A model generated the notes under the pieces. The model ran no database searches. It saw nothing but the letters and a program-made list of their open reading frames with translations, and was not told where the DNA came from. Shown here in pieces: positions 8,060 to 50,528 of a stretch of DNA of 64,000 nt; position 1 is the first letter of the stretch, and each line of letters begins with the position of its first letter. Made by a program: the position numbers and the translations under genes. The stretch is from a virus, in the IMG/VR virus record IMGVR_UViG_3300030004_000001, positions 62,001 to 126,000 of that record; one strand, written 5' to 3'.

Positions 8060-8407
8060 ATGAGTTTAATTAAATTAGCTATGCGAACTGGTAAAGCTAT
8101 TAGAGGTTTATTTAGTGCCGTAGAAGCTGATGTTAAAAATTCTAGAAATGCAACTAAAAAAGCTATTCAGGGCGCTTATGAAGGTGCCAAGAATGGTGAT
8201 TTAGGTGCTGCTTATTTAAAACAACGTAAAATGAATAGTGATTTAGGTAAGAAGATTCGTAAATTAAGAGATCAGATTAAAGGTCATGAATCTGAAATTA
8301 AATCTCATAAATTAAAAGAAAAGATTATCGGTGGAGTTGGATTAGGAACTACCATTGGCGCTGGAAGTCTAGCTTTTCGTCATAAAAAGAATGTGGAGAA
8401 ATTATAA
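8060..8407 (+). CDS. MSLIKLA-family small protein
   Basis: 115 aa. The ATG at 8060 has GAGG eight bases upstream and begins the shared MSLIKLA peptide; an upstream ATG at 8009 would run through the intergenic stem-loop and is rejected. Basic helical middle, glycine-rich hydrophobic stretch near the C-terminus (about residues 90-105). The stop overlaps the next start by one base. Function unknown, probably a virion or membrane-associated structural component. Confidence 0.72.
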   Translation: MSLIKLAMRTGKAIRGLFSAVEADVKNSRNATKKAIQGAYEGAKNGDLGAAYLKQRKMNSDLGKKIRKLRDQIKGHESEIKSHKLKEKIIGGVGLGTTIGAGSLAFRHKKNVEKL

Positions 8408-8682
8408 TGTCTATCGTAAAACTTGCTTTTAATCTTTCAGGGATTAAAGATGCAGTAGTTAATGCTGCTAAAGGTACTGCTATTAAATCTGAGGCTCATC
8501 GCCTTGAGAATAGTACCTTAACTTCATTACGCAGACTTCCTACTGCTGCTGATAAACTTAAACATTTTGCTACTACTAAATCTGGCTTAAAATCTTTAGC
8601 TCCTAGTGCTGCTCTTTATGGAGGGGCTGCTTTAGGTGTTGGCGCTGCGGCAAAAGCTTTAACTGGCAAAAAGAATGATTAA
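8407..8682 (+). CDS. MSLIKLA-family small protein (MSIVKLA variant)
   Basis: 91 aa starting MSIVKLAF, with one-base overlap to the gene before and eight bases to the next. C-terminal Ala/Gly-rich hydrophobic segment (about residues 65-85) like its neighbours. Unknown function; grouped with the same putative structural set by its N-terminus. Confidence 0.68.
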   Translation: MSIVKLAFNLSGIKDAVVNAAKGTAIKSEAHRLENSTLTSLRRLPTAADKLKHFATTKSGLKSLAPSAALYGGAALGVGAAAKALTGKKND

Positions 8683-9028
8683 AGAAATTGCATTAAAATA
8701 TGATGATTTAGGATTATTTAAACTTGCATCTATTCTTGAAAAAGATGGTGCGGTTAATCCTATGCAGATGGCCATTAGTAAGACTATGAATCCTGAACAG
8801 GGATTACATTATAATCTTGCTACCGATGCTGCCGCTGCTGCTAAAAAAGATCCTTCTAAATTAGGATTAATGAGACAGCGTTTACAGGGATTAAAAAAGA
8901 CTGGACCGTTAAGATTAGATGATGCTGTTAAATCTGGCATTGTTAATTCCTTAAAGAAACCTACTCCTATAGCAGAAGTTATTCCATTTGCTAATAAACT
9001 TAAATCTATGGCTTTAAAAGTGAAATAA
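8675..9028 (+). CDS. Small head-region protein with FKLAS motif
   Basis: 117 aa. Has FKLAS around residues 15-19 after a short N-terminal helix, then a basic, alanine-rich body. Eight-base overlap with the previous gene. No family recognised; the FKLAS motif follows the K-x-A pattern of the operon. Confidence 0.65.
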   Translation: MIKEIALKYDDLGLFKLASILEKDGAVNPMQMAISKTMNPEQGLHYNLATDAAAAAKKDPSKLGLMRQRLQGLKKTGPLRLDDAVKSGIVNSLKKPTPIAEVIPFANKLKSMALKVK

Positions 9029-9029
9029 T

Positions 9030-9245
9030 ATGAGTTTAATTAAATTAGCATTTAAAGACTCAAAAGAATTAGATAGTGAATATATAGATAATAGATGGCT
9101 TGGAAGACGGGCAAGAGGTAAGTTATTAACTTATCCATTAGCTGCATTTGGAATGTTACCTGCTCCATTACTTGGACATTACTTAGATCATAGACGTAAA
9201 GAGAAAGATTTTATGAATCATCCTGAAAAATTTAAAAAGAAATAA
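9030..9245 (+). CDS. MSLIKLA-family small protein
   Basis: 71 aa; the first 18 nucleotides of the gene are identical to those at 8060, 48589, 50053 and 50199. Contains a short hydrophobic stretch near residues 35-50 and a basic tail. Immediately precedes the protease gene. Function unknown. Confidence 0.65.
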   Translation: MSLIKLAFKDSKELDSEYIDNRWLGRRARGKLLTYPLAAFGMLPAPLLGHYLDHRRKEKDFMNHPEKFKKK

Positions 9246-9247
9246 TA

Positions 9248-10972
9248 ATGTATAAATTAATAGAATCATCAAATATTCCAGAAGATCAACAAATATCTAT
9301 CTCATTAGAAGATAGATATGAAAATGATTTTATTAAAACTGCTTCTAAAAGAGATTTACCAAAAGAAGTTGATGAGGCTATTAAAAATTTAAAACGTAAA
9401 AAAGATCATAGCTATATGTTAGTAACTGCTATGGGTGATGGTGAAACATGGTCTGATAATAAAAATCATGATTATTTTCCATATGATTCATTGTTAGGAT
9501 TACAAAATACTCCTGTTTGGAATGAAGTCTCACCTAAAGATGAAAGATTAAATAATAGAATAAAAGCTAAGTTACGTTATCAAACATTTAGTGACGCTGG
9601 CTGGTTTCATCATCATCATAACAAACCAGAGCGTGGAGATCAAATTTATGGTGAGGTTCCAAATGCTATTTGGAATCCAAAAATGCATACAGTACTTCTT
9701 ATTATTGGAGTAGATAATAAAAAAGATCCTGAAACTGCTGAAATGATTAAAAGAAATCAATTAGTTGCAGTTTCTATGGGAGCTAAACTTCCATGGGATC
9801 GTTGTTCTATTTGTCATCAACATAATACTTCTATTATGAAATATTGTCCTCATCTTAAATTTCAAATGGGTAAAATTTTAGATGATGGTCGTAAAATTTA
9901 TGCTGAAAATTTATTTCCTAGATTTTTTGATATTAGTAAAGTAAATCGACCTGCATTTTTAGCCGGTATGCAATTAGAAAAAGTTGCTAGTACAGATTTT
10001 GAATTTAGTTTAGATCTTGCTGATTATTATGATATTGGACAATTTGATAAAGAGGCAGAAGAAATAGAAAAACATTCTACCATTTACAAAGAAATGCCAA
10101 CTCATATTGAAGGTGCAATAGCTAAAGTATGTAATACTGAAAGAGATCTTCCACATAAATTAATGGAAGAATTAGCTAAACTTAAACCTTCTGAAGCTTG
10201 GGGTGCTTTAACTCATGCCGGTATTATTGCTAAGCCAAATGAGTTTGCTTATATTTTATTAAAGAATTCTAATCGTGATGATTTAGCTCAAGAATTTTAT
10301 CATACTAAAGCAGTAATTAAAAATCCTGACGTAAAAGGATTAGATGAAGAATTGCATTCTTTAGCTGATATTGATATTACACATAAAGCCGTTAAATTAT
10401 CTAATGAAATTCCTACTCATATATTAGATGAAAGATCTATTGGATGTGTTGGAGATAGAATTTACAATACTGAAAAAGGTTTACGTAAAGAAGCCGAAAT
10501 AACTAGAACTATAGGTCTTGGATCTATTCTTTCTGCATTATATTTATTATATCGTAATAACGCTGAAAGTAAATTTAGCGCTTATGGTTTATTAGGTTCT
10601 GGTATTTCTCAAATGATTAGAGACAATAAAGAGTCTGATAAATATATTAGTAATAATCCATTTACTAATGAAGAGTTAAATAAACAAGCTGCCGCAGTTC
10701 CTGGTTTCTGGAATTCAGGCAAAGGATTATTAACTAAAGGAGCTATTGGTTTTGCAGCTCCATATATTGCTAGTGCCCACTACCAAAATAAAATGCAACA
10801 AGGATATCCTGTTGGAGTTTTAGGTAGAACTATTGCTAACAACCCTGGTAAAATGGGAATTGTTGGTGCCGCAATGGGAATGGCTGGTGCAAAGAATAGT
10901 TATAAAGCTATTAAGAATGTATCTAATGATTTAACAACTGGCGTAAGCAAAATTTTTAAGGATAAAAAATAA
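9248..10972 (+). CDS. Capsid (prohead) maturation protease, multidomain
   Basis: 574 aa. Residues 50-240 resemble phage prohead proteases: a histidine cluster H121-H124, a conserved 'YGEVPNA' strand, 'VAVSMGA' with candidate nucleophile S176, a zinc-like set (C186, C189, H190/H192, C200, H202), and 'FFDISKVNRPA', typical of the family. It would cleave scaffold and capsid propeptides during head maturation. The region after 250 is helical with K-x-A motifs and hydrophobic Gly/Ala segments near 490-510 and 540-560, so it may be a fused internal-head domain. IKTA (29-32) and EKVA (244-247) flank the protease domain and could be autocleavage sites. Catalytic residues are inferred by pattern. Confidence 0.75.
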   Translation: MYKLIESSNIPEDQQISISLEDRYENDFIKTASKRDLPKEVDEAIKNLKRKKDHSYMLVTAMGDGETWSDNKNHDYFPYDSLLGLQNTPVWNEVSPKDERLNNRIKAKLRYQTFSDAGWFHHHHNKPERGDQIYGEVPNAIWNPKMHTVLLIIGVDNKKDPETAEMIKRNQLVAVSMGAKLPWDRCSICHQHNTSIMKYCPHLKFQMGKILDDGRKIYAENLFPRFFDISKVNRPAFLAGMQLEKVASTDFEFSLDLADYYDIGQFDKEAEEIEKHSTIYKEMPTHIEGAIAKVCNTERDLPHKLMEELAKLKPSEAWGALTHAGIIAKPNEFAYILLKNSNRDDLAQEFYHTKAVIKNPDVKGLDEELHSLADIDITHKAVKLSNEIPTHILDERSIGCVGDRIYNTEKGLRKEAEITRTIGLGSILSALYLLYRNNAESKFSAYGLLGSGISQMIRDNKESDKYISNNPFTNEELNKQAAAVPGFWNSGKGLLTKGAIGFAAPYIASAHYQNKMQQGYPVGVLGRTIANNPGKMGIVGAAMGMAGAKNSYKAIKNVSNDLTTGVSKIFKDKK

Positions 10973-11544
10973 TGGATCTCAAAGAATTTATAGAAAAAAC
11001 AGAGCCAGAGGTCTTGCAAAAACTCGCGTCTGAAGCTCAAGATGAAATGGTTAATAAAGTAATAGATGCTATCTTTCCTTTGTTAGAAAAGACCGCAAAT
11101 TATACAGCACAGCTTGTCTTAGAAAAGATTGCCGAAGAATTATCTGAAAAGAAAGAACCTAAAGAAGAAAAGGAAGAGGTTGAAAATACCGATAATCCTA
11201 ATGAGGAAAGTGCAGAACAAGCTGCTGTAGAAGATGAAAATGTTAAAATAGATAGTACTCCTGCTACTGGTAATAAAACTAATGAAACTATGGACCCAAC
11301 TAATACTCCAGGTGGTATGCGGGCTCAGGATATTAAAAATGCGGTAAGTGAAGCTTGCGAGGCTGGTCAATCTAATAAAATTATTCCATTTGTTAAAGCT
11401 GTAGGTGAACAATATCCTGATGCTATTCAGGAATTAATTAAAATGGTTAAAGTAGAATTACAAGCTGCTTTTTTAAATAAATCTATTGATGAGGAAACTG
11501 CTACTGCTCTTTCCGATGAATTAAATGCGATGGTGGGAGCTTAA
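10972..11544 (+). CDS. Acidic scaffold-like protein
   Basis: 190 aa. N-terminal helices with QKLAS, EKTAN and EKIAE motifs, a strongly acidic low-complexity stretch (about residues 60-95), and a helical C-terminus. Composition and position between protease and capsid genes fit a scaffolding or internal core protein. It overlaps the protease stop by one base. Confidence 0.65.
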   Translation: MDLKEFIEKTEPEVLQKLASEAQDEMVNKVIDAIFPLLEKTANYTAQLVLEKIAEELSEKKEPKEEKEEVENTDNPNEESAEQAAVEDENVKIDSTPATGNKTNETMDPTNTPGGMRAQDIKNAVSEACEAGQSNKIIPFVKAVGEQYPDAIQELIKMVKVELQAAFLNKSIDEETATALSDELNAMVGA

Positions 11545-11949
11545 ATGAGTGATAGTTTTATTGATAAACTTTTAGCAGAAGCCGAATCTGAGATTGGTTC
11601 GGATTTAGAAAAGTCAGCTAATGATGAAAATGGTGCGCCCGATGCTCCATCTAATCAGGAACAGGGTGGTGGTGATATTTTAACTACTGCTCAAGCCTTT
11701 TTACAGAAAGTAGAACAGTTTAAAGCTGCTTTATCTCAGGGTGGGACTCCAGCAGAAGGTGATCCTAATGCGCAGCCTAATCAGGAAGATCAACCTGCCG
11801 AAGCTGCCGCTGCTCAAGCTGTAGGAGCTACTACTTCTGGTAATAGCACAGTAATGATTCAAAGACCTGATGGAACGCAAATTAAATTAGCCTCTTTAGC
11901 TTCGTTAGTTTCGGCTAGAGGATCTAAACTTTTTAAAGAGGTAAATTAA
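11545..11949 (+). CDS. Acidic Gln/Ala-rich head-region protein
   Basis: 134 aa, adjacent to the previous gene. EKSA motif near residue 24, a Pro/Gln/Gly/Ala-rich disordered middle, and IKLAS near residue 112. Likely scaffold or core component; not recognised by family. Confidence 0.62.
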   Translation: MSDSFIDKLLAEAESEIGSDLEKSANDENGAPDAPSNQEQGGGDILTTAQAFLQKVEQFKAALSQGGTPAEGDPNAQPNQEDQPAEAAAAQAVGATTSGNSTVMIQRPDGTQIKLASLASLVSARGSKLFKEVN

Positions 11950-11950
11950 A

Positions 11951-12334
11951 ATGGACCCAGTTCAGCAAGGTCAATCAGATCCGCTTCAGGATGCTTTACA
12001 GCTTTTAGATGAATCTGCTGCTATTATTCAAGAATTAACTGCTCAGATTCAGTCTAAGGGAAAAGACGAAGATATGTCCAAGAAAGCGGAGGAAGTGGCC
12101 GTTAAATTAGGCGTGTCTTTTAATCAGGCTTCTGATATGATTAAGACTGCGAGCGAATCAGGTGAAAGTATCGATGCCATGGTAAAAATGGCCTCTATTA
12201 TGAGACAGAATAGATCTTTTGGTTCCGTATATACAGAAGAAAAAGTAATTCCAATTTCAGGCTCTAAAGCAATTGATTCATTCATGGAAAAGCAAGCTGC
12301 GTTAATGGGTGAATTAGGACTTGACGAAAATTAA
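11951..12334 (+). CDS. Small head-region protein with repeated K-x-A motifs
   Basis: 127 aa, helical, with KKAE, IKTAS, VKMAS and EKQA spaced through residues 45-115. One base after the preceding stop and before the decoration-like gene. Candidate scaffold or maturation substrate; function unknown. Confidence 0.62.
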   Translation: MDPVQQGQSDPLQDALQLLDESAAIIQELTAQIQSKGKDEDMSKKAEEVAVKLGVSFNQASDMIKTASESGESIDAMVKMASIMRQNRSFGSVYTEEKVIPISGSKAIDSFMEKQAALMGELGLDEN

Positions 12335-12359
12335 CCATTATATCAAGGAGATATAAAAT

Positions 12360-12794
12360 ATGTTTAACATTCTCAGTGGCCTTCAGGAAGGTTCTCACTC
12401 AGTAATGATCACTAGCCGTTCTGGCCCCGCCGGACTGGTTAAAGGTACGGTTGTTCAGTTAACTGGTACTTCTAATACTATTGCTAAATCTGATAATAGC
12501 ACCGTAGGTCTTGGATCTTCAATTGGTTTCATCTTTGAAGATCTGTTAAGTCAGACTTCCGGTTCTTATACCGTAGTTTATGGTGTCATGGAAGCTGAAA
12601 CTGATCAGGTTTCTGGATCACCTGCCATTGGTTCTTATCTTAAGCCTGGCACTGGTGCTACTGCCGGTTTACTTATTGCAGCTAGTCTTCCTGGCGATGC
12701 TAATTTGGTTAAAGGTCAGGTAGCTGATAGTTACAGCATTGCTAATGATGCTCAGGGTATTAGCACTTCGGTTTATCGTATCGTAACCTTTTAA
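12360..12794 (+). CDS. Capsid decoration-like protein
   Basis: 144 aa, start with AAGGAG nine bases upstream. Predicted beta-rich, small and G/S/T-rich, with 'GLVKGTVVQL' and 'GSYLKPG' turns as in small head-decoration or capsid-fibre proteins placed just before the major capsid gene. G+C-richer codons match the capsid gene, suggesting high expression. Function inferred mainly from position and composition. Confidence 0.6.
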   Translation: MFNILSGLQEGSHSVMITSRSGPAGLVKGTVVQLTGTSNTIAKSDNSTVGLGSSIGFIFEDLLSQTSGSYTVVYGVMEAETDQVSGSPAIGSYLKPGTGATAGLLIAASLPGDANLVKGQVADSYSIANDAQGISTSVYRIVTF

Positions 12795-12827
12795 GATAAA
12801 TTAAAAATTAAATAGGAGATTTTAATT

Positions 12828-13748
12828 ATGAGTAATATGATGGCTTCCCAGCTTTGGGATGTATTTACCGGAAAATCAGCTTCCGGTATGGAGAAGGTAG
12901 CCGCTCTTACTGAGGATTTTATTCGTGATCGCCTTCGTGAGACTAGCGTATTAAATCGCGCTATTCCTCCTGTAGTACTTACCGAAGCACAGATTGAACG
13001 TAATACTACTAATGACTGGCCTCTGAAGCGCGTTGAGATTGAGCCCGATTCTAAGGCTTTCACTCTTGGCTTCCGTGGTAAGGGTTCTGCTAACTTTATG
13101 GAAGGCAGAAAGTATGAAGTTTACTTTACCAAGATTGAAACTCAGCACTTTAAGAAGACCCGTGAAGAATTAATGACAATGCGTTATCCTCTTATGGATG
13201 TTGTGAATAACAACTTCGTACTGGATATGCAGGAACAGCTTGATGCTCTCTTTAAGATTAGACTTGATGCTTCCGTAGCCGCTTCCGGTAATACCTCTGC
13301 TGCTACTGCTGGTGCCGTAAAAGATAACTTTAAGAATGCAGTTATTACAGCGGTTCGTCAGGTGCTTGGTAAACGGCGTAGAGTTGCTCGCCTTATTATG
13401 ACAGAATCAACTTGGCTGGACCTGGCTAAGCTCGAACCTGATAAGATTGGTTATGAGAATGTTGGACGTATTGCGCTGAATGGCGTTGCTGCGGAAAAGA
13501 CATTCTTAGGTTATGAAGTTATCACTTCGATTAACTCCACTACCGCTAATAGCGTATGGCCTGATGATAGTATCTATGCCATTGCAATGCCTGAATTTTT
13601 AGGTTCTAACTTTATCCTGGGTGATGTTCAACAGGAAATGAAGCGTGAAGCTAATATTCTCGAATGGTATTCATGGGCTGATCAGGGTGCTGAAATTGGT
13701 AACGTTGCCTCAGTTGCTAAGGTTACTGGTATTGCCTCTCTCACTTAA
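12828..13748 (+). CDS. Major capsid protein (HK97 fold)
   Basis: 306 aa, start with TAGGAG. The central part contains 'RRRVARLIMTESTWLDL' and 'GYEVITSI' followed by a C-terminal beta region, typical of HK97-type major capsid proteins in this gene order. Residues 1-25 form a short N-terminal arm ending in EKVA (22-25), the same K-x-A motif as in the scaffold-like proteins. This could be a cleavage site releasing a very short propeptide. Codons are the most G+C-rich of the window, as expected for the most abundant virion protein. Confidence 0.88.
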   Translation: MSNMMASQLWDVFTGKSASGMEKVAALTEDFIRDRLRETSVLNRAIPPVVLTEAQIERNTTNDWPLKRVEIEPDSKAFTLGFRGKGSANFMEGRKYEVYFTKIETQHFKKTREELMTMRYPLMDVVNNNFVLDMQEQLDALFKIRLDASVAASGNTSAATAGAVKDNFKNAVITAVRQVLGKRRRVARLIMTESTWLDLAKLEPDKIGYENVGRIALNGVAAEKTFLGYEVITSINSTTANSVWPDDSIYAIAMPEFLGSNFILGDVQQEMKREANILEWYSWADQGAEIGNVASVAKVTGIASLT

Positions 13749-13761
13749 ATAGGAGTTACAT

Positions 13762-14133
13762 ATGTCGTATGTCAAAGCTTTGTTTGGTCATATTACTGGA
13801 GAAGGTCTTTCGTTAAAAGAGGGGCAGATTGGATTTATTGAAGATAGTAAAAAGCATATCTTAAATGATCTAGTTAAACGCGGTCTCGTTATTGTTAAAG
13901 ATTCTCATGAAGAGGCTGAAGCTTTTAAGTTTATTTCTCGTCAGGAATTATTTAATAAAAGTTACAAATCTTTAAATCCTCCTGAAGGCGAAAATGCTCC
14001 TGTTAGTTTAATTGATTGGGAAAATACTCAACCTACTATTATTAATGGAATCCCATCTAATTATATTGTTGAAGAGCCTAAGAAAGAAGTTAAAAAAGTA
14101 GTAACTCCTCCTTCTTCAGATGATAAAAAGTAA
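13762..14133 (+). CDS. Small protein following the major capsid gene
   Basis: 123 aa, start with TAGGAG. Beta/alpha N-terminal part and a Pro/Lys-rich C-terminal tail. Last gene before a terminator. Possibly a head-completion or minor capsid protein by position; not recognised. Confidence 0.65.
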   Translation: MSYVKALFGHITGEGLSLKEGQIGFIEDSKKHILNDLVKRGLVIVKDSHEEAEAFKFISRQELFNKSYKSLNPPEGENAPVSLIDWENTQPTIINGIPSNYIVEEPKKEVKKVVTPPSSDDKK

Positions 14134-14155
14134 ATTGTTATAATATGAAACAACT

Positions 14156-14179
14156 AAAAACCGCTTCTAGCGGTTTTTG
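14156..14179 (+). terminator. Intrinsic terminator after the head operon
   Basis: CCGC/GCGG stem extended by A-T pairs, TTCTA loop, T5 tract. Downstream of the gene ending at 14133. Confidence 0.85.
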
Positions 14180-14187
14180 TTGTTTTA

Positions 14188-14196
14188 TGATATAAT
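14188..14196 (+). promoter_or_regulatory. Extended -10 promoter (TGATATAAT)
   Basis: TGA-TATAAT lies 19 bases upstream of the 14215 start, directly after a terminator; no clear -35 box. Same TGn extension as the other plus-strand promoters. Confidence 0.6.
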
Positions 14197-14214
14197 CAGA
14201 TAGAGGTAACTCAC

Positions 14215-15051
14215 ATGATTAATCCACCCCAGACCTTTCCAAATGGTCAAATGACTCCACAAATTTTAATTAATCTTATTCGCATGTTTCTTCGAGATAA
14301 ACCTAAATTAAATGCTTTAATTAAAAAAGAAGAAACAGATGATGATGAAATTAAATTAGCTATTAATATGGCTATTAGTGATTGGAATAGCACTCCACCA
14401 CTTTTAACTCACGTTGGATTAACTAATTTTCCAGTTATGGATTGGTTAATTGTGGCAAGTGCTATGTTTATTTTGCAGTCTGCTGGTGTATTACAATATA
14501 GAAATGAATTGCAATTTAATGATAGTGGTATTACTACTAGTCCATGGACGAAGGGTCCAGCTTATATGGGCGTAGCTGGTATGTGGGCTCAATTAGTAGA
14601 AAAGAAAAAATATGAATTTAAACTTGCAATTAATTATGGTCGTACATTTGGTATTGTTAAAAGTGCTGAATATATGCTTTGGGATTACTCAGGACTTTAT
14701 ACTGGTCCAGACTATTTAACCGCTACAGGAACCTCCTCTATGTCTGCCGTCCCTGGTGGTATTCTAGGCCCGAATGGTCCCAGCGGTAGACCCCAGACCC
14801 CCCAGAAAACCGACCCATTTGTATTTGTAATGAGCAATTGGACCCTCGATCCGGTGAATAATCGTTACGTGATAAATTTCTATCACAATTTAAATTCAGA
14901 TGTAGATGTTAGAATTACAGATCCAGTTACCGGAACTGATTTACGAAATAAAGTTAATATTGTTTTTCAGAATAAGAATGTATTATTTATTTGGGTTCCG
15001 ATAGTACCTGATACTCGAATGGAAGGCCAGATGATTGCATTTAAACTTTAA
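14215..15051 (+). CDS. Probable head-tail connector/neck protein
   Basis: 278 aa, start with GAGG. The N-terminal 170 residues are alpha-helical with a 'DDEIKLAINMAISDWN' helix and a hydrophobic 'MDWLIVASAMFIL' helix, as seen in connector/neck proteins of large myoviruses. A Gly/Pro-rich linker near 180-200 joins a C-terminal beta domain. It is its own transcription unit, with promoter 14188 and the terminator at 15066. The function is an inference from helix pattern and context. Confidence 0.5.
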   Translation: MINPPQTFPNGQMTPQILINLIRMFLRDKPKLNALIKKEETDDDEIKLAINMAISDWNSTPPLLTHVGLTNFPVMDWLIVASAMFILQSAGVLQYRNELQFNDSGITTSPWTKGPAYMGVAGMWAQLVEKKKYEFKLAINYGRTFGIVKSAEYMLWDYSGLYTGPDYLTATGTSSMSAVPGGILGPNGPSGRPQTPQKTDPFVFVMSNWTLDPVNNRYVINFYHNLNSDVDVRITDPVTGTDLRNKVNIVFQNKNVLFIWVPIVPDTRMEGQMIAFKL

Positions 15052-15065
15052 TTAATAGTTAAAAA

Positions 15066-15094
15066 ATAAAGCCCCGGTTAAGGGGCTTTTTATT
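15066..15094. terminator. Bidirectional terminator between convergent genes
   Basis: AAAGCCCC/GGGGCTTT stem (15068-15075, 15082-15089) with A and T tracts on both sides. Serves the plus gene ending at 15051 and the minus gene ending at 15093. Confidence 0.85.
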
Positions 15095-15284
15095 ATTTAG
15101 TTTCTAAAAGAACTGAATCTAAATCTGGCCATATCTTATCTGGGCGTTTACTCAATTCAATTAATATATCATGGGATATTTTAGGTCTTTTAAAAATAAC
15201 TAATTCTTTTCTATTAATCCAATAAATTCTACCAAAAATTAATACTAAAGAAGAAAACCAGATTATTATAATTATATACCACAT
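15093..15284 (-). CDS. Small single-span membrane protein
   Basis: 63 aa. Very hydrophobic N-terminal helix (residues 2-20, Trp/Ile-rich) followed by a basic cytoplasmic-type tail. GGAAG precedes the start and a promoter of the TGCAAA-TATAAT family lies 20 bp upstream, so it is expressed on its own, unlinked to the tail genes. Function unknown. Confidence 0.65.
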   Translation of the reverse strand: MWYIIIIIWFSSLVLIFGRIYWINRKELVIFKRPKISHDILIELSKRPDKIWPDLDSVLLETK

Positions 15285-15303
15285 ATTATATTACTTCCAT
15301 TTA

Positions 15304-15332
15304 TATTATAACAAAATTATTCTAATAATTGC
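15304..15332 (-). promoter_or_regulatory. Promoter, TGCAAT-N17-TATAAT
   Basis: -10 TATAAT 15304-15309, -35 TGCAAT 15327-15332, exactly 17-bp spacer ending TGT. Member of the minus-strand family, but without a 5' stem-loop because the leader is short. Confidence 0.8.
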
Positions 15333-15337
15333 AGATA

Positions 15338-15366: not shown

Positions 15367-15388
15367 ATATTTAAGATATAATCTATAA

Positions 15389-43001: not shown

Positions 43002-43031
43002 TTTTTATTCCCCAGATTCAGTATAGGTATA

Positions 43032-43334: not shown

Positions 43335-43525
43335 TTCAAACTCCATGTATAACAATCCCATTGTTTTACAGCGAGAGGATTTCTGACTATTCTACCTTGA
43401 TCCATAAGTTCTTGCAAATCTTGAGTAATATGATCTGGCCAATGTTCCGAATCAATAACTTCTCCAATCTCACGACCCGTTAAGGCTTTGTGAGATTGGA
43501 GAAGTTCTAGAATTAGTGGTAACAT
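43331..43525 (-). CDS. Small winged-helix-like protein
   Basis: 64 aa from the ATG at 43525 (GGAAG upstream). 'ALTGREIGEVIDSEHWPDHITQDLQELMDQGRI' follows the helix-turn-helix and wing of small DNA-binding proteins. Candidate transcription regulator. Confidence 0.5.
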   Translation of the reverse strand: MLPLILELLQSHKALTGREIGEVIDSEHWPDHITQDLQELMDQGRIVRNPLAVKQWDCYTWSLK

Positions 43526-43860
43526 ATTCTTCCGACCAATTCTGGTAAAAGTCCATGTTCTTTCAACCAAACTTCATTACTATGCCTTCTATTTTTTTGC
43601 TTAATAATTGCTGTAGTAGAAATCTTTTTATCAATTACTAATTTCTCTAAAGATTCCAATGGATCATTATAGAACCAAGAAATTTTCCATCCATCAATAG
43701 TGGTGGAATCTTCTTTATATTTTTTAGCTTTTGCAATTTGACTATAAATATATATTGGTTCATAATTATATTTTCGAATAAATATTGCTAAATTACAAAG
43801 TTTTACTGTAACTCCATTTGCAATTGCGGTAATTTCCCAATGACCAGTTCTCTTTTTCAT
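43513..43860 (-). CDS. Unknown protein with homing-endonuclease-like motifs
   Basis: 115 aa. Arg/Lys-rich C-terminus, 'TTAIIKQKNRRHSNEVWLKEHGLL'. Overlaps the neighbour by 13 bp. Not confidently recognised. Confidence 0.52.
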   Translation of the reverse strand: MKKRTGHWEITAIANGVTVKLCNLAIFIRKYNYEPIYIYSQIAKAKKYKEDSTTIDGWKISWFYNDPLESLEKLVIDKKISTTAIIKQKNRRHSNEVWLKEHGLLPELVGRICYH

Positions 43861-44126
43861 TAGAATTCAACCTCATGATTTAATACTCGACGCATGATTT
43901 CAGGATGTTCATTTTTCGAAAAATCAAGAAAACATGTGAAACAGTCAAAATCTTGAGTTACACAATATTGAATTGAAATAATTTCTAATACTGGTAATTT
44001 ATTTCCAATTTTAATTTGACCATAAAAAGGAACCTTATCACCAATCATTGGTCTAAATGGAAGTTCTGAAATATAAGGTTTATCAGAATATGCATCGATA
44101 TTTGTATGAAAGAAAACCTTAAACAT
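43860..44126 (-). CDS. Unknown protein
   Basis: 88 aa, beta-rich ('FRPMIGDKVPFYGQIKIGNKL'). One-base overlap with the next gene. Not recognised. Confidence 0.55.
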   Translation of the reverse strand: MFKVFFHTNIDAYSDKPYISELPFRPMIGDKVPFYGQIKIGNKLPVLEIISIQYCVTQDFDCFTCFLDFSKNEHPEIMRRVLNHEVEF

Positions 44127-44366
44127 TTAATCCTCCGGATTAATCGTAAAGTCTACTACGTCATGTTTTCCATATTTGTCAATAAGAAGTGATCTACGCC
44201 AGAAAAATCTATTACCACCATCTGTTATAAAATCTCCATATACTGGATCATTTTCGTGTGGAGATTCCGAAATAGCAATTTGAATAATTAGTTTTTGAGG
44301 AATTCTAATATGATTATCTAGAAAATCATTTAATTCTTCTTTTGTGTATTCTTCTAACTTTTTCAT
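44127..44366 (-). CDS. Unknown protein
   Basis: 79 aa, acidic. A TATAAT box at 44376-44381 may drive this operon, but without a clear -35. Not recognised. Confidence 0.55.
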   Translation of the reverse strand: MKKLEEYTKEELNDFLDNHIRIPQKLIIQIAISESPHENDPVYGDFITDGGNRFFWRRSLLIDKYGKHDVVDFTINPED

Positions 44367-44394
44367 TTTAGATCCATTATATCTCTCTATGAGA

Positions 44395-44424
44395 AATGAA
44401 AACAGGCACCTAATTGGTGCCTGT
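44395..44424 (-). terminator. Terminator after ssb
   Basis: ACAGGCACC/GGTGCCTGT stem (44402-44410, 44416-44424), five-base loop, U-rich tail on the minus strand. Could also work in reverse. Confidence 0.8.
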
Positions 44425-44456
44425 TATTATTTTACATTTACTAGAACCTTATTATA

Positions 44457-44906
44457 TCAGAATGGGATATCTGAATCATCTTCAACGGTATTAGTTCCAG
44501 ATCCACCATTATTATCACTATCTGCATAACCAGTCTGTTCGGGATCTGGTTCGTGATGACCCCCACTCTCGCCCTTCTTACCACAGAAATCAAAAGCATT
44601 CAACTTAATATGAGTATACCAAATCTTCTTATTTTCATCTGCGGGATTCTTACCTTCGGTATACTCAATCTTACCTTCGATAATAACTTCAGCACCCTTC
44701 TTAAAAAACTTTTCAATTGCTTCGCCTTGCTTACCCCAGGCTACAATATTATGCCATTCAGTCTTGGACTTAGCACTTCCATCCTTGTCCTTCCAATTTT
44801 CAGTAGTGGCTACCGAAAAACGACAAAGAGTTGCACCACCTGGAGTTGCCTTCAATTCAGGATCTTTACCCAGAAATCCATGAAGGATAACCTTATTAGT
44901 TGACAT
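44457..44906 (-). CDS. ssb: Single-stranded DNA-binding protein
   Basis: 149 aa from the ATG at 44906 with GGAG upstream; an upstream ATG at 44948 lies in the inverted repeat and is rejected. OB fold: 'NKVILHGFLGKDPELKAT', 'WHNIVAWGKQGEAIEKFFKKG', 'EGKIEYT'. The C-terminus has a Gly/Asn/Asp-rich linker and ends DDSDIPF, the acidic tip through which SSB recruits partners. Coats ssDNA for the phage polymerase. The gene has a 5' leader with an inverted repeat and is followed by a terminator. Confidence 0.93.
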   Translation of the reverse strand: MSTNKVILHGFLGKDPELKATPGGATLCRFSVATTENWKDKDGSAKSKTEWHNIVAWGKQGEAIEKFFKKGAEVIIEGKIEYTEGKNPADENKKIWYTHIKLNAFDFCGKKGESGGHHEPDPEQTGYADSDNNGGSGTNTVEDDSDIPF

Positions 44907-44927
44907 ACTTTCTCCGTTAAGAGTTGA

Positions 44928-44947
44928 TGGCCATGTCTCAATGGCCA
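44928..44947. repeat. Inverted repeat in the ssb leader
   Basis: TGGCCAT/ATGGCCA with a six-base spacer, about 20 bp upstream of the ssb start. It could be an operator or a leader hairpin for control of ssb. Confidence 0.55.
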
Positions 44948-44991
44948 ATTGTTATGTTATTTTATAATAATATCAAACTTTATTAGTTTGA

Positions 44992-45135
44992 TTATTGAGC
45001 GAGAACTAATTCGCGCACGTATGTAGATACGTCCTTATTAGCCTCTGATGCAATCTTTTCAAATTGCTCTTTTTCTTCACTTGTCACTCTGATTGTGACA
45101 AATTTTCTTCTGTGTAATTTACATAACTCTGACAT
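44992..45135 (-). CDS. Ribbon-helix-helix (CopG-like) regulator
   Basis: 47 aa starting MSELCKLHRRK. 'FVTIRVTSEEKEQFEKIASEA' followed by 'NKDVSTYVRELVL' is the beta-strand, helix, turn, helix pattern of CopG/Arc-type repressors. Strong own promoter (TTGCAC-N17-TACAAT). Probable regulator of nearby genes such as ssb, possibly through the inverted repeat; target inferred. Confidence 0.7.
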   Translation of the reverse strand: MSELCKLHRRKFVTIRVTSEEKEQFEKIASEANKDVSTYVRELVLAQ

Positions 45136-45160
45136 GGTGTATTCCTCGTAATCATACTAT

Positions 45161-45189
45161 ATTGTAGCACGATTCTGAGGACGGTGCAA
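45161..45189 (-). promoter_or_regulatory. Promoter TTGCAC-N17-TACAAT (extended TGC)
   Basis: -10 TACAAT 45161-45166 preceded by TGC, -35 TTGCAC 45184-45189. Drives the ribbon-helix-helix gene 26 bp downstream. Confidence 0.78.
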
Positions 45190-45191
45190 GT

Positions 45192-45368
45192 TTAATTTAA
45201 CAACACTCTCATTAATGATTCTCTATCAAGTTCTTTTGTAGTGCATTTATAACAATTTTCTCCAGTACCTTGAAAAGTAATATTTTCTCCTAAAACATAA
45301 ATAGATTCAATTAATTTTAAATTTACGAAAACTTCTCCATTAGATTGAACAATTTTAATAAATTCCAT
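45192..45368 (-). CDS. Unknown small protein
   Basis: 58 aa from the ATG at 45368 (AGGA upstream). Beta-rich, two cysteines. Not recognised. Confidence 0.55.
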   Translation of the reverse strand: MEFIKIVQSNGEVFVNLKLIESIYVLGENITFQGTGENCYKCTTKELDRESLMRVLLN

Positions 45369-45615
45369 CTGCAATCCTATTCTTTGCAACTAATTGCTGA
45401 AGAGACTGACCTGCTTTTTTAATTGTTCGATATCGGTCTTTTGGATCTTTATGATTTAGACAGATTGATTTATTATCATTAAGACAACTTGCGATAATAG
45501 AAATCTTATTTTTAATACTAATTCCTCGCATTGAAAAAACCTTATTGTTTACTTCTTCTGGATTAAGATTCAGTAAACTATAAATTTCCTGTACACGATC
45601 TTCATTATCGGTCAT
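45355..45615 (-). CDS. Unknown protein
   Basis: 86 aa, charged; 'KDPKDRYRTIKKAGQSLQQL' basic helix. Not recognised. Confidence 0.55.
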   Translation of the reverse strand: MTDNEDRVQEIYSLLNLNPEEVNNKVFSMRGISIKNKISIIASCLNDNKSICLNHKDPKDRYRTIKKAGQSLQQLVAKNRIADGIY

Positions 45616-45889
45616 TTATGATTTCCATTTCAGTCTCTAATAGAAAAGGATATTTCTCTAATTTATTTAAAAGATCTTCATAAGAACAATCTACTATCTT
45701 TCTTATAGATCTCCATGTCTGAAAAAGAATCATTGGTTGTTTTAAGAAGAATAATTTAATTTCAAGACCTGATTTTTTATAAAAAGTGAGTCGTACTTTA
45801 TCAGTATCTTCTTCGATGTCAAGTACAATTTTCCAATTTTTTGCCACTCCAAACTCATTTATTTTATTTATAATTTTATCTCTACACAT
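45605..45889 (-). CDS. Unknown protein
   Basis: 94 aa, alpha/beta. Starts after a short leader peptide and overlaps the next gene by 11 bp. Not recognised. Confidence 0.57.
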   Translation of the reverse strand: MCRDKIINKINEFGVAKNWKIVLDIEEDTDKVRLTFYKKSGLEIKLFFLKQPMILFQTWRSIRKIVDCSYEDLLNKLEKYPFLLETEMEIINDR

Positions 45890-45891
45890 TT

Positions 45892-45933
45892 TTAATCCTC
45901 GTCTGAGTCGCCATTATAATATGGCCAAGACAT
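45892..45933 (-). CDS. Possible 13-aa leader peptide
   Basis: ATG with CAGGAG eight bases upstream, encoding 13 residues ending in DSDED; stop 3 bp before the next gene. Could couple translation to the 45605 gene. Another frame gives a 30-aa peptide without a ribosome-binding site. Confidence 0.35.
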   Translation of the reverse strand: MSWPYYNGDSDED

Positions 45934-46013
45934 ATTTTACTCCTGTATATATTGTGTTTCAAACACCCTCCCATATGTAAGGATTATATAGTTATTAGGA
46001 TGATAAGTCGCTA

Positions 46014-46042
46014 TTGCTTATCAAGTATTTTTTGATAAACAA
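46014..46042. repeat. 10-bp stem-loop in the leader of the 45605 operon
   Basis: Arms 46014-46023 and 46033-46042 pair over 10 bp (one G-U), nine-base loop. About 35 nt after the transcription start predicted from 46087. The stretch 45934-46080 carries no convincing gene. Confidence 0.5.
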
Positions 46043-46056
46043 TAACTACTTACCAA

Positions 46057-46115
46057 GAGAAATAATATAATATTATCTCCATATATATTATAACAAAAAA
46101 GGAAGACTTTTTGCG
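46057..46115 (-). promoter_or_regulatory. Promoter CGCAAA-N17-TATAAT with 5' stem-loop
   Basis: -10 46087-46092, -35 46110-46115. ATAATAT/ATATTAT inverted repeat at 46062-46076, flanked by GAG/CTC. Overlaps the plus-strand promoter at 46123, so the two directions may interfere. Confidence 0.8.
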
Positions 46116-46122
46116 ACACCTG

Positions 46123-46131
46123 TGTTATCAT
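46123..46131 (+). promoter_or_regulatory. Extended -10 promoter (TGTTATCAT)
   Basis: TGT-TATCAT, 19 bp before the 46150 start. Divergent from, and close to, the promoter at 46087-46115. Confidence 0.5.
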
Positions 46132-46149
46132 TAAGGAAAGGAGATTCTT

Positions 46150-46539
46150 ATGTGGAAGTTAGTCGGAGCTATTTCTATTGTTTTATCAACAAGTTTATTT
46201 ATTGAAATGTTAATTCGTAAAGTAGTTACCCTTACTCAATTACGAGATTGTGTAATTTCTTTATTCCAGGGTGTAGTTAGTAGATTTGATCGTTCTGTAA
46301 CTGGGAATGATGGATCTTATTCTAGTACAAGATTATTAGATTATCTTTGGGGTATTGGTGGATTTTGCTTAGTATGTCTTTGTACTTTAAGAAAAATTAA
46401 TATTCCCGATGGTGTATATTATTTGATTGGAACAGCAATAGGTGTTGGCGCTACAAAAGGTGTATTTAATAAAATTCAAGAAATTAAAACTGTTGCTGGT
46501 AAAATAATTGGAGATCATAATGATTCAGATAATCAGTAA
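46150..46539 (+). CDS. Membrane protein, holin-like
   Basis: 129 aa, AAAGGAG ribosome-binding site. Three hydrophobic segments (about 4-22, 70-83, 87-103) and a charged C-terminal tail. Size and topology resemble holins, and a second membrane protein follows. No catalytic motif, so holin is an inference. Confidence 0.5.
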   Translation: MWKLVGAISIVLSTSLFIEMLIRKVVTLTQLRDCVISLFQGVVSRFDRSVTGNDGSYSSTRLLDYLWGIGGFCLVCLCTLRKINIPDGVYYLIGTAIGVGATKGVFNKIQEIKTVAGKIIGDHNDSDNQ

Positions 46540-47251
46540 ATGTAAAAGTTATTTATATACAATTTTAATTACTGCATTAGTAACGAGTGGAGTTTATACT
46601 TATATATTAAATAGATCAACAAATAAAGATGCTGTAAAAATTGCTACTTTAAGTGGAGAAAATACAAAATTAAATGATTCTCTTAAAGATCAAACTGCTA
46701 AAAATCAAATTTTGCAAGCTAAAGTTGATCAAGCAACTACTAATGTAAATAATGCTCATCAAGTTACTATTACTGCAGATAACCATCTTAATTCTACACC
46801 TTCAACAGTTAATATAACTCCAGTTAAAGAAGTACAAGAAGTAAAAGATGCAATAGCTAAAAATTATAATGATTCTACTGTAGGATTTGATGGTACAAGA
46901 TTTAATATTATTCAACCTACAGTAGTTAGTTTAACTAATGATGCTATTCAATGGAAAGTTAATGGTCCTATTTTAACAACAAAATTAGCTGCTACCGAAG
47001 AAAGTTTAGATGCTACTAGAAAAGAAAATACTGCTAATCAAACTTTAGTTACTACGCAAACTGATTTAAATAATGGTTTAACTAACTCTAATAAATTACT
47101 TACTGAAACTAATAATAATAAGGATAAACAGATTAACTTATATGAGAAAGACTTGAAAGTTCAATCAATGAATGGTAAGATTAAATTTGTCCTTGGTATT
47201 GGTATTGGTGGTGGTGGTTATTGGATCTATGACCATTACATTAAAAAATAA
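46520..47251 (+). CDS. Membrane-anchored coiled-coil protein (spanin-like)
   Basis: 243 aa from the ATG at 46520 (GGAG upstream; a TTG at 46508 is the alternative). One N-terminal transmembrane helix (about residues 12-30), then a long extracytoplasmic Asn/Thr/Lys-rich coiled-coil with heptads, and a short hydrophobic Gly-rich segment (about 220-238) near the C-terminus. Two membrane anchors with a linker in between is the plan of some unimolecular spanins. Its role in lysis is an inference. Confidence 0.5.
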   Translation: MIQIISKCKSYLYTILITALVTSGVYTYILNRSTNKDAVKIATLSGENTKLNDSLKDQTAKNQILQAKVDQATTNVNNAHQVTITADNHLNSTPSTVNITPVKEVQEVKDAIAKNYNDSTVGFDGTRFNIIQPTVVSLTNDAIQWKVNGPILTTKLAATEESLDATRKENTANQTLVTTQTDLNNGLTNSNKLLTETNNNKDKQINLYEKDLKVQSMNGKIKFVLGIGIGGGGYWIYDHYIKK

Positions 47252-47269
47252 TGTTATTTTAAAGAGATA

Positions 47270-47956
47270 ATGATGGATGTGATAGAAATATTAGGTGAAA
47301 TAATAAAAAAATGGGGACTTGTAGCTGGATTTCATTTTTTGTTATTTAGTACAATTATATATATATTAATTCATAAGACCATTAATGGTAAAACTCTTTG
47401 GAATAAATTATTTAATAAAACTAAAACAAAATATAATCTATCTAATCACGTAATGTTTGTTAATTTAAGAAAATATATAAACTACGACATTAAACATTTT
47501 ACATTAGGAGAAAGGTTACGAGAAGCTATTTTCCGTGATTTTCTCCTAATTAAATTTACGATTGTAGAAGATGAATTTAAGAAAGTTATAGAAGATAATA
47601 CTCTTGAGTTAATGTCTAACGAAGTCTATTCTAAAAGAATGTTAGACTGTATTGTTAATATTGTAAAGTTATATGAAATAAAAGCTAAGGAAGCTGGTAT
47701 ACCTGATATTGCTATAACTAGATTTACCGAATGGTATGATGATAAGGTTCAGGCTATTTATGCTTTTATAATTAATGTTTGTGAAGATACTGATATTTAC
47801 AATGATAATAACATTAAGACTAAAGTAATATTTGATTTTATGAATCATATTAATAACTTTACTATTTTAGGTATTCGTAAAGTTCTTTTAGACTTTAATG
47901 GTGAGTTAAGTAAACTTACTTATAAAGGTATTACTTATAATAGGTATGGAAAATAA
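47270..47956 (+). CDS. Membrane-anchored protein of unknown function
   Basis: 228 aa. An N-terminal transmembrane helix (about residues 15-35), then a soluble helical domain. No endolysin motif seen. Third gene of the membrane cluster; unknown. Confidence 0.6.
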   Translation: MMDVIEILGEIIKKWGLVAGFHFLLFSTIIYILIHKTINGKTLWNKLFNKTKTKYNLSNHVMFVNLRKYINYDIKHFTLGERLREAIFRDFLLIKFTIVEDEFKKVIEDNTLELMSNEVYSKRMLDCIVNIVKLYEIKAKEAGIPDIAITRFTEWYDDKVQAIYAFIINVCEDTDIYNDNNIKTKVIFDFMNHINNFTILGIRKVLLDFNGELSKLTYKGITYNRYGK

Positions 47957-48006
47957 ATCTCATAAATATTATAAAGAAACAAGATTTCTTTGAATATTGT
48001 GAAACT

Positions 48007-48102
48007 ATGAATGATTTAATTAAGAATATGCCAAAACATGAGCAAGACAAAATGAATAAGTTAATGAAGAAATTTATTGAGAACTATAATGGGTCTAATT
48101 AA
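48007..48102 (+). CDS. Small basic protein
   Basis: 31 aa, helical and Lys/Met-rich, ends GSN. Its stop overlaps the start of the next gene. No good ribosome-binding site; weak. Confidence 0.35.
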   Translation: MNDLIKNMPKHEQDKMNKLMKKFIENYNGSN

Positions 48103-48241
48103 ACTAGCATTAGAAACATCTCCACTAGTAGAGAGTGACAAAGATCCTCGTCTACTTCCTGATACGGTAAGACAAAAACCTCAATTAAGAACCAAACCAA
48201 ATAAAACAATGATGAACTGGGGAATGAAGAATACTGGTTAA
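48089..48241 (+). CDS. MSLIKLA-family small protein (MGLIKLA)
   Basis: 50 aa. Begins MGLIKLALETS and has a basic tail. It overlaps the previous gene by 14 bp and belongs to the group of short proteins sharing the N-terminal peptide. Confidence 0.6.
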   Translation: MGLIKLALETSPLVESDKDPRLLPDTVRQKPQLRTKPNKTMMNWGMKNTG

Positions 48242-48266
48242 CTAATATATTAATTGGAGAAATAAA

Positions 48267-48587
48267 ATGCTTAGTATTATACTTTCTGTATTTCTATCTA
48301 TTTCTCCAACAGCCTCTTCTATTCCTCCTGTGGATATACAGAGTAAACAAATAGTAGAAGATCCTAATTTTCAACCACTAGTTGATCTAATTAATTCTCG
48401 TATTAAAGATAATAAAGCTTCTATCAAAATACAAGATGGAGATTATAATGGTGAATTTTCTCTAAAGTTTATTCAACTAATAATGAACCTTTCTAAATAT
48501 TATAAAGATCAAGGATTTAAAGTAAATATTTATCATGATGATGAACCTGACATTATTATATTTTCTATTAGTAAGATTGTGAGTTAA
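48267..48587 (+). CDS. Secreted or periplasmic-type small protein
   Basis: 106 aa. Starts with a hydrophobic signal-like segment (residues 1-18, ending ASSI) and continues as a charged soluble domain. Start follows TTGGAG. Unknown function. Confidence 0.55.
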   Translation: MLSIILSVFLSISPTASSIPPVDIQSKQIVEDPNFQPLVDLINSRIKDNKASIKIQDGDYNGEFSLKFIQLIMNLSKYYKDQGFKVNIYHDDEPDIIIFSISKIVS

Positions 48588-48588
48588 A

Positions 48589-49332
48589 ATGAGTTTAATT
48601 AAATTAGCTTTAGTTGTTCCTCAGACTAAATTTAATAGTTTTAAAGATAACCTTGCAGCATTGCCGGTTAGAGGTTATGCCACTATGTCTAATAGTGGGA
48701 ATATAATCGCTGGCGATGTGCGTAATCCATTACTTAGATTCACTTCTCCATTACATAAAATTTTTGATAGCAAACAAAATATAAAAGATTTACACAGAAT
48801 AGGAATTAAGCATGAATTATCTGAAAGAAAATATCTTAATCAATATAATGAAGGTAAAGGTCCTTTCGAAAGAATGTTTTCTAATCCTGTAAAAGCAGAT
48901 ATAAGACAAGGTATTTTTAATGCACCAAAAGGTAGGCATGCTACTTTAGCCGTTTTGGGCGAAGAAAGTAATAATTTATCTAAATTAAAAAATAAAAATG
49001 CAATTAATAGAATGCAAAAGATACGATATTTAACTGGTGAATCTGATATTATTAAAAATATAACTAGTAAAACTTATGGTAAAGATTTACTTTCTGCTGC
49101 TGATATAGATAAATTACATCAATCATCATTAAAACAATCTTTATATCACACAAAATCAAAATCTGCTATTGGTAGAGTAGCAGGCATGGCACTTGCTCCA
49201 TTTTTAATAAAAGGGGAAAATGATCAAAATACTGTAGGAAAGAGAATTGATGCTTCTATATTAGGTGGAATGGTTGGTGCTAAAGGTGAGAAATTCTTAC
49301 GAACTAATATTTTAAAACTACATAAGAGATAA
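48589..49332 (+). CDS. MSLIKLA-family protein
   Basis: 247 aa with the shared N-terminus, then a basic helical body and a Gly/Ala-rich hydrophobic segment near residues 200-235. Resembles the 20482-21309 protein in plan. Possibly virion-associated. Confidence 0.66.
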   Translation: MSLIKLALVVPQTKFNSFKDNLAALPVRGYATMSNSGNIIAGDVRNPLLRFTSPLHKIFDSKQNIKDLHRIGIKHELSERKYLNQYNEGKGPFERMFSNPVKADIRQGIFNAPKGRHATLAVLGEESNNLSKLKNKNAINRMQKIRYLTGESDIIKNITSKTYGKDLLSAADIDKLHQSSLKQSLYHTKSKSAIGRVAGMALAPFLIKGENDQNTVGKRIDASILGGMVGAKGEKFLRTNILKLHKR

Positions 49333-49336
49333 TAAT

Positions 49337-50056
49337 ATGCCCTGGTCATATCCTGATAATGTACCAACTTCAATGAAATATTTTAAACCTTCTATTCAGA
49401 AGAAAGCAATTTCTATTGCAAATGCCATACTTAAAAATGGTGGTTCAGAAGGCACGGCCATTGCAACTGGAATTAAACGAAGTAAAGGATTGGTTAAATT
49501 AGCATCAGCTTTTACCAATGTTAAAGATTTTGTTAAATCTAATAAATTTGCTTTAGGTGCTGCTGGTTTAGGTGCTGGACTGGCTGGATTAGAAAGTAAA
49601 AATCAAATAACTGATAAAAAATTTACAAAAGGTCAAAGAGTTAAAAATGCGATTGTAACAGGTGCTCTTTTCGGTGCTTCAGGATGGGGATTAGACAGAC
49701 TCTCTGGTATGAGAAAAAATATTATAAATAGAATAGAAGAGGATTTAGGAGACCCTAGAGATATCAACTCTAAGATTAGATCTAAAATTACAGAAGCAAT
49801 GAAACAAGAAAAAGTTCCAGTTAAACCTGGAGGTTATCATAGATTTCCTATTGAAGCAAAAGTTCATGAAAAAGGTAATTATAGAACTCAATTAATAAAA
49901 TTTACGCATGGTAAGGATGGTATTGAAAAACTATCCTTTATACGGGATGGTAAATTTTTAAAAGAATTTATTAAACAATTAAATAAAGGTAATAAGAAAT
50001 ATTTAGTAGATAATTATAATAAACTTATTGAGAAAACGCAGGAGTCTATATTATGA
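49337..50056 (+). CDS. Protein with N-terminal 'PWSYPDNVP' domain and glycine-rich hydrophobic segment
   Basis: 239 aa. Residues 1-48 match a short domain seen by eye in many bacterial and phage proteins ('YPDNVPxSMK...KKAISIANAIL...EGxAIA'), function unknown. VKLAS (about residues 53-57) follows the K-x-A pattern. A Gly/Ala-rich stretch (75-90) and a charged C-terminus follow. Start with GAGATAATA. The stop overlaps the next gene. Confidence 0.65.
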   Translation: MPWSYPDNVPTSMKYFKPSIQKKAISIANAILKNGGSEGTAIATGIKRSKGLVKLASAFTNVKDFVKSNKFALGAAGLGAGLAGLESKNQITDKKFTKGQRVKNAIVTGALFGASGWGLDRLSGMRKNIINRIEEDLGDPRDINSKIRSKITEAMKQEKVPVKPGGYHRFPIEAKVHEKGNYRTQLIKFTHGKDGIEKLSFIRDGKFLKEFIKQLNKGNKKYLVDNYNKLIEKTQESIL

Positions 50057-50202
50057 GTTTAATTAAATTATGTTCAGTTATAATTCCTGATTCTCATTTA
50101 AAAGAAGATCATGAAGAATTAGAAAAAATGAAAAAGAATTCGAAAGGAATTCTTAAAACTGTAAAAGAAATGGAAGAAGAAGATAGTAAGGCTAAAAAAT
50201 GA
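50053..50202 (+). CDS. MSLIKLC-variant small protein
   Basis: 49 aa. First 18 bases identical to the other copies, then Cys replaces Ala. The rest is a charged helix, ending KAKK. Short overlaps with both neighbours support translation. Confidence 0.6.
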   Translation: MSLIKLCSVIIPDSHLKEDHEELEKMKKNSKGILKTVKEMEEEDSKAKK

Positions 50203-50528
50203 GTTTAATTAAATTAGCATTAGATCAACAAAAAACTGGTATCGCTGGCTTTACTCAACGTCATCCTTATTTGACCTCAGGAATTGCGTTAACTGGTGGA
50301 CTTGCGGCAGCCGACGCTGGTTTAAATGTATTTAAAACTTTAAAAGGAACGGGTGGTAGCCTCATTTCGGGTTTAAAGCAAATTAAGGGTAATCCTGGGC
50401 TCAGGAATGAGCTAGGTCACGGCATCAAGAAAGGTCTGGTGGAGGGTGGGCTTTATGGCTCGATTCTGGGGACTGTAGAACCTGCTATTGGTAGGGGAAT
50501 ATTTAGAAAACCTAAAGGTGAGGAATAG
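50199..50528 (+). CDS. MSLIKLA-family protein
   Basis: 109 aa with the shared N-terminus and Gly-rich segments (about residues 30-60, 80-100). G+C-richer second half. Last gene before a bidirectional terminator. Confidence 0.65.
   Translation: MSLIKLALDQQKTGIAGFTQRHPYLTSGIALTGGLAAADAGLNVFKTLKGTGGSLISGLKQIKGNPGLRNELGHGIKKGLVEGGLYGSILGTVEPAIGRGIFRKPKGEE

Follow-up and report, generated by a model that had tools for sequence, protein, structure and literature searches.

The window is the whole stretch of DNA analysed here: 64,000 bases, which are bases 62001-126000 of a virus record of 157,395 bases in total. Genes were called on the whole record with the author's own script, which gave a set of 234. 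Several genes in the window start with the peptide MSLIKLA or something very close to it. This peptide is called the leader, the rest of the protein is called the body, and a slash separates the two in the list below.

8060..8407, + strand: leader gene, MSLIKLA/MRTGK..., 115 aa; leader at 8060-8080, basic body with a Gly/Ala segment
8407..8682, + strand: leader gene, MSIVKLA/FNLSG..., 91 aa; peptide type kept, codons different
9030..9245, + strand: leader gene, MSLIKLA/FKDSK..., 71 aa; body exchanged in the phage L016
20482..21309, - strand: leader gene, MSLIKLA/FNPGS..., 275 aa; glycine zipper, adjoins the portal gene
48089..48241, + strand: leader gene, MGLIKLA/LETSP..., 50 aa
48589..49332, + strand: leader gene, MSLIKLA/LVVPQ..., 247 aa
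50053..50202, + strand: leader gene, variant MSLIKLC, 49 aa; non-basic body
50199..50528, + strand: leader gene, MSLIKLA/LDQQK..., 109 aa

A possible hairpin (ATGCCTA...TAGGCAT) lies at 8009-8040, just 5' of the 8060 leader gene. Because of it, a longer ORF start at 8009 is less likely.

An earlier, sequence-only reading of this DNA had reported five genes identical over their first 18 bases, and the exact 18-mer ATGAGTTTAATTAAATTA is indeed found at all five (8060, 9030, 48589, 50053 and 50199). The 21309 gene, said to be one base off, does have a single mismatch on the minus strand, and the copy at 48089 has three. Allowing up to 3 mismatches there are 7 matches, versus 1.36 expected and a shuffle maximum of 5. 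The 15 bases that follow the ATG are confined to those five gene starts in a search of the 157-kb record. Upstream of the leader genes no obvious common sequence is seen when they are compared by eye, in line with the earlier observation that conservation starts at the ATG.

The same reading assigned nine genes to this family. The looser versions at 48089 and 8407 do belong, but 55543 (MSLIKYL) was rejected, being an early minus-strand gene without K-x-A. Genome-wide, 14 genes start with M-x-[LIV]-[IV]-K-L-[A/S/C]. Those beyond the window are at genome positions 1133, 3152, 4502, 19756, 23267 and 153275. All 14 are late genes, in a genome where 90 of the 234 genes are late or structural (hypergeometric P 8e-7).

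Some DNA identity is to be expected from the peptide itself. Given SLIKL, codon bias yields AGT TTA ATT AAA TTA with a probability of 0.045. These codons are found in 5 of the phage's 8 own MSLIKL leaders (binomial P 9e-6), and AGT encodes Ser2 in 27 of the 34 leaders, versus 7 of 35 other own genes. Leader DNA identity above codon bias suggests common descent, by copying or recombination. In the 8407 gene the leader DNA is ATGTCTATCGTAAAACTTGCT, which keeps the type of peptide with synonymous codons changed, and several relatives retain the peptide with quite different codons. Because it is kept despite this, it is the peptide that is selected.

This bears on whether the block could serve late genes as a translation-initiation or mRNA element, being AT-rich and unstructured so as to allow an efficient start. 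It starts at the ATG, is AT-rich, and is carried by late genes only. The majority of late genes do without it however (14 of the 90 carry the leader), and the motif described below also occurs internally, away from gene starts. The sequence-only reading had listed translation control as an option; since synonymous codons vary while the peptide stays, in 8407 as well as in the relatives, a pure element of this kind is unlikely, and we give it next to no chance.

The bodies were said to differ after the peptide, with several carrying Gly/Ala segments. This is borne out: with the leader removed, 40 distinct leader proteins, those of relatives included, form 30 body clusters, and Gly/Ala-rich hydrophobic segments occur in many of the bodies. 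The body pI is over 9 in 13 of 14 leader proteins, versus 7 of 76 other late proteins (P 6e-10). The odd gene is 50053, with MSLIKLC and a body pI of 6.1. Pfam and PHROGs searches on the tested leader bodies gave only the glycine zipper of 20482 and one insignificant PHROG. On the related contig L037, at 1656-2648 (-), there are five consecutive short genes that each start with MSLIKLA, with bodies that are all different.

In one case a body can be seen to have been swapped. L016, a near-identical phage, shares 88% identity with the window as far as 9044 and 97% from 9236 onwards. In the interval between, it has a different protein body directly after the leader, which there reads MSLIKLS. One reading is that the repeated DNA is only a 5' cassette copied recently, or an anchor for recombination, that has been kept by descent, and that the peptide has no shared role. 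The five identical copies exceed codon bias, and this, the AGT preference at Ser2 and a body exchanged exactly behind the leader all fit such a cassette. It accounts for the DNA identity, but not for the amino-acid constraint: the peptide is kept with other codons, and the wider motif recurs in proteins that lack this stretch of shared DNA, and in phages whose capsid identity is about 25%. The cassette that the earlier reading proposed holds up where leader and body shuffling and the L016 swap are concerned. As the sole explanation it falls short, and we see a slim chance for it.

Going by the sequences, hydrophobic-x-Lys-x-Ala (hxKxA) is a more general motif with the extended pattern [LIVMF]xK[LTIVSEMQ]A[SAENTDG], and MSLIKLA is the form that it takes at the N-terminus. 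The pattern was picked after seeing examples, which biases toward the motif the counts of 40 extended motifs in + strand proteins (5.6 expected, z 15) and of 75 hxKxA in late proteins with the 14 leaders removed (32+-5.6 expected). The controls for this bias are the early genes, the undetected proteins of the phage Arash, and the phage JA29. Early proteins have 4 extended motifs versus 4.0 expected; the other two controls are given below. In an unsupervised pair test on late proteins, K.A and L.K are among the top gapped pairs, with a small lead; it is the combined motif, rather than single gapped pairs, that stands out there. The motif is found in these genes:

6090..7289, + strand: probable core protein; 7 hxKxA sites, similar by eye to Arash gp220
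7320..7997, + strand: scaffold-like protein with 9 hxKxA sites
8675..9028, + strand: protein with one hxKxA site near the N-terminus, LFKLA/S, residues 14-18
10972..11544, + strand: scaffold-like protein with 3 hxKxA sites
11545..11949, + strand: scaffold-like protein with 1 hxKxA site, N-terminal
11951..12334, + strand: scaffold-like protein with 3 hxKxA sites

It is also found in the protease and in the major capsid protein:

9248..10972, + strand: prohead (head maturation) protease, 574 aa; hxKxA flanking the catalytic domain
9329..9343, + strand: putative N-terminal self-cleavage site FIKTA, protease residues 28-32
9974..9988, + strand: putative self-cleavage site LEKVA after the catalytic domain, protease residues 243-247
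12828..13748, + strand: major capsid protein, 306 aa, phrog_2522
12888..12902, + strand: putative capsid maturation site MEKVA, residues 21-25

In the capsid protein, then, the motif is N-terminal; the scaffold-like proteins have it repeatedly, and in the protease, which is encoded in the same cluster, it lies at either end of the catalytic domain. This matters for one more way to read the leader, as a signal for membrane insertion or for ejection after injection that is unrelated to head proteolysis. The many bodies with Gly/Ala hydrophobic segments would suit such a signal. But the capsid protein, the scaffold-like proteins and the protease also have the motif and none of these are ejected membrane proteins, and the leader is too short to span a membrane. 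We hold this to be highly improbable.

The protease matches the family phrog_18299, head maturation protease, with an E of 3e-11, and has seven hxKxA sites. An alignment-based search gave 148 relatives, of which 80 were kept. Across 43 non-redundant domains, the columns that never vary include two neighbouring His and one Ser, which are His 122/123 and Ser 176 of the protein (H98, H99 and S152 of the domain); judged by this invariance they are probably its active-site residues. The K and A of the site before the catalytic domain are likewise invariant in the 43 proteases. This N-terminal site is present in 57 of 57 extracted proteases, and the site after the domain in 32 of 57, using a fixed search window. 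The capsid site, MxKVA, keeps its M, K, V and A in all of seven relatives. In Arash and the Vibrio phage D181, at 26-27% identity, the site reads GLVKEA and GLTKEA, and its Lys and Ala are among the few columns that stay invariant with these two included. Neither residue varies in the capsid and protease homologues with identities of 25-40%.

The model of the protease domain has a pLDDT of 87.7, while the full 574-aa protein, folded from 4 sequences, reached a pLDDT of 30. The closest solved structure is T4 gp21 (5jbl), with a Z of 9.4 and 2.9 A over 126 residues. Next come the herpesvirus proteases, or assemblins, at Z 6-8.5, a predicted fold similarity for which no sequence similarity was found. 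A structure Z of 7-8 is possible by chance; the gp21-like fold is nonetheless credited because gp21 ranks top and there is an independent family match. Foldseek alone gave no significant match to the domain model in the PDB, and gp21 emerged on re-alignment. A viral structure library returned named prohead proteases at E 1e-5 to 1e-8, amid many unnamed proteins. A search with the protease profile found nothing among PDB sequences, gp21 included, and Pfam S78 is a weak match in 4 of 43 relatives. By fold, the 9248-10972 protein is modelled as a prohead protease of the gp21, S78 and herpesvirus type, with predicted activity. Herpesvirus assemblins cleave after Ala. We know of no short leader on their cargo proteins.

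Relatives of this phage have been cultured. Arash, a Salmonella phage, and the Vibrio phages D69, D148 and D181 have a capsid protein, portal and protease homologous to those found here, at only 25-34% identity and with different bodies. Arash and D181 have the same hxKxA sites as this phage. The leader peptide, which the sequence-only reading suggested looking for in related genomes, is present there, as MSLHKLA in Arash and, on a protein of the same type, MSLVKEA in D181. More distant phages have leader forms of their own, like MIIKLA, MSFEKTA and MNKYIEKIA; at N-termini hxKxA has 55 occurrences, versus 9-16 if other residues replace the K. D181 (contig L056) also has a small, very Arg/Lys/Gln-rich protein starting MNMEKVAQLVKLA, possibly a DNA-binding head protein. 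In Bacillus phage G the hxKxA sites of the protease are present and there is a moderate excess of the motif (20 vs 7.5), while its capsid protein is without the site. In the control phage, Dickeya phage JA29, hxKxA is not in excess; a prohead core protease is annotated there, and this protease is a distant relative. A cutting signal of the form hxKxA seems to be common to a broad phage group.

For Arash, mass spectrometry of the virion has been published (PMC10585845). Proteins with at least 5 unique virion peptides contain 60 hxKxA, versus 24.4+-4.9 expected, and undetected proteins contain 11, versus 13.3 expected. The MSLHKLA protein, gp95, is a virion protein with a Gly/Ala segment and a basic body. 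The paper mentions neither a protease nor cleavage, and its table comes without termini (PMC10585845). Its coverage values were left out for placing N-termini because they look implausible; one 965-aa protein, for instance, is given 90% on the basis of 2 unique peptides. Full-length paralogy and absence from virions had been named as what would speak against a shared leader; the bodies are not full-length paralogues, and this relative's gp95 is in virions.

The record has some further features that stand apart from the leader. There are 16 copies of CAT[AT]TATATTATAAC, all in one orientation, with TTGC about 20 bases on in nearly all of them (3476, 15298, 40940, 41158, 41531, 46080, 50731, 51383, and 8 more in the record). 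Seen from the minus strand (GCAAA...TGTTATAATATATATG), they resemble an early promoter that is conserved. The leader gene at genome position 23267 is immediately followed by a single 1994-aa polypeptide with Rpb2 (beta) and Rpb1 (beta') RNA polymerase domains (L010:3579-9563, genome 23579-29563). It is possible that this fused polymerase is packaged, because polymerase subunits are abundant in Arash virions. A TnpB/OrfB_IS605-like protein with a Cas12f1-like domain is at 57280-58383 (-), and by eye there is a second TnpB-like protein at genome 47630-48691. Finally, 50782-51068 is a repeat array with a spacing of 12 or 18 bases, within a short minus-strand gene.

Removable N-terminal sequences that target proteins to the head are known from T4, where they direct the internal proteins (PMC9026906). 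IPI, IPII, IPIII and Alt, all cut by gp21, carry a short N-terminal peptide on unrelated basic proteins, and as here the bodies behind the common leader are diverse (PMC9026906, PMC12373910). T4 also uses one protease specificity for scaffold and capsid protein, much as the motif is shared in this phage. The differences are in the details. The T4 signal is L/I-x-E and not hxKxA, its targeting sequences have 10-19 residues versus 7, and it has about 4 leader genes versus 14. Given that K-x-A replaces x-E, the processing signal puts this leader outside the T4 type, though it would act in the way that the T4 sequences do. Prohead protease systems are also known from the large phages SPN3US and phiKZ (gp175), which have many internal head proteins, N-terminal propeptides, self-cleavage of the protease and, in SPN3US, a packaged RNA polymerase (PMC10052503, PMC7411985). 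These proteases cut after Glu (AXE in SPN3US), and SPN3US propeptides often exceed 100 residues. No paper on a K-x-A prohead motif or an hxKxA protease specificity was found among open papers, which is weak evidence of novelty.

It is also conceivable that the leader is never cut, and is a docking or packaging signal that binds scaffold or protease, with hxKxA as the binding motif. The cut at the motif is a prediction, and positions 2, 3 and 6 vary less in the leader than in the general motif, which is what one would expect of a peptide that binds. This uniformity of S2, L3 and L6 is more than a bare cleavage site would need, and it means that shared DNA descent also contributes. Against an uncut signal, the motif sits where the prohead proteases of T4 and SPN3US cut, which is at the capsid N-terminus, in the scaffold and at the ends of the protease domain (PMC9026906, PMC10052503). 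We regard an uncut docking signal as unlikely.

The reading we prefer, and as a whole consider quite probable, is that MSLIKLA is a short capsid-targeting propeptide that includes the site at which it is cleaved in maturation. As the prohead assembles, the leader would take proteins that are mostly basic, and whose bodies are unrelated, into the core of the scaffold. The gp21-like protease (9248-10972) would then cut after the Ala in hydrophobic-x-Lys-x-Ala, and the same cut would trim the capsid protein and the protease itself, and shred the scaffold. The freed bodies would remain in the head beside the DNA, and would probably be delivered to the host. Leaders may spread, or bodies be exchanged, as cassettes by recombination. 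What was observed or computed is the leader, the enrichment of the motif, its conservation, the family and predicted fold of the protease, the diversity of the bodies, one body swap, and one relative's leader protein in virions; from these we infer the cut after Ala, its exact bond, the targeting role and the ejection into the host. Gene 50053, which ends its leader in Cys and is not basic, is at odds with this. The earlier suggestion of a targeting or maturation leader with K-x-A is well supported: capsid protein, scaffold-like proteins and protease all conserve K-x-A, and in Arash it is tied to virion proteins.

More broadly, we lean towards a broad phage group that has an undescribed hxKxA maturation specificity, and a seven-residue tag through which many interchangeable proteins are loaded into the head. 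Most of this group would be uncultured, its cultured members being Arash, the Vibrio D-phages and, in part, Bacillus phage G. Phage proteins that are packaged in the head are difficult to spot, since there is nothing that their bodies have in common. A readable tag would make candidate head proteins visible from the genome alone, in a group that is mostly unannotated. If true, a scan for N-terminal hxKxA would list many phage proteins that are packaged in the head and probably injected; the head-packaged proteins of T4 turned out to be restriction-enzyme inhibitors (PMC12373910). The tag may also serve as a short address that removes itself, with which proteins could be loaded into phage heads.
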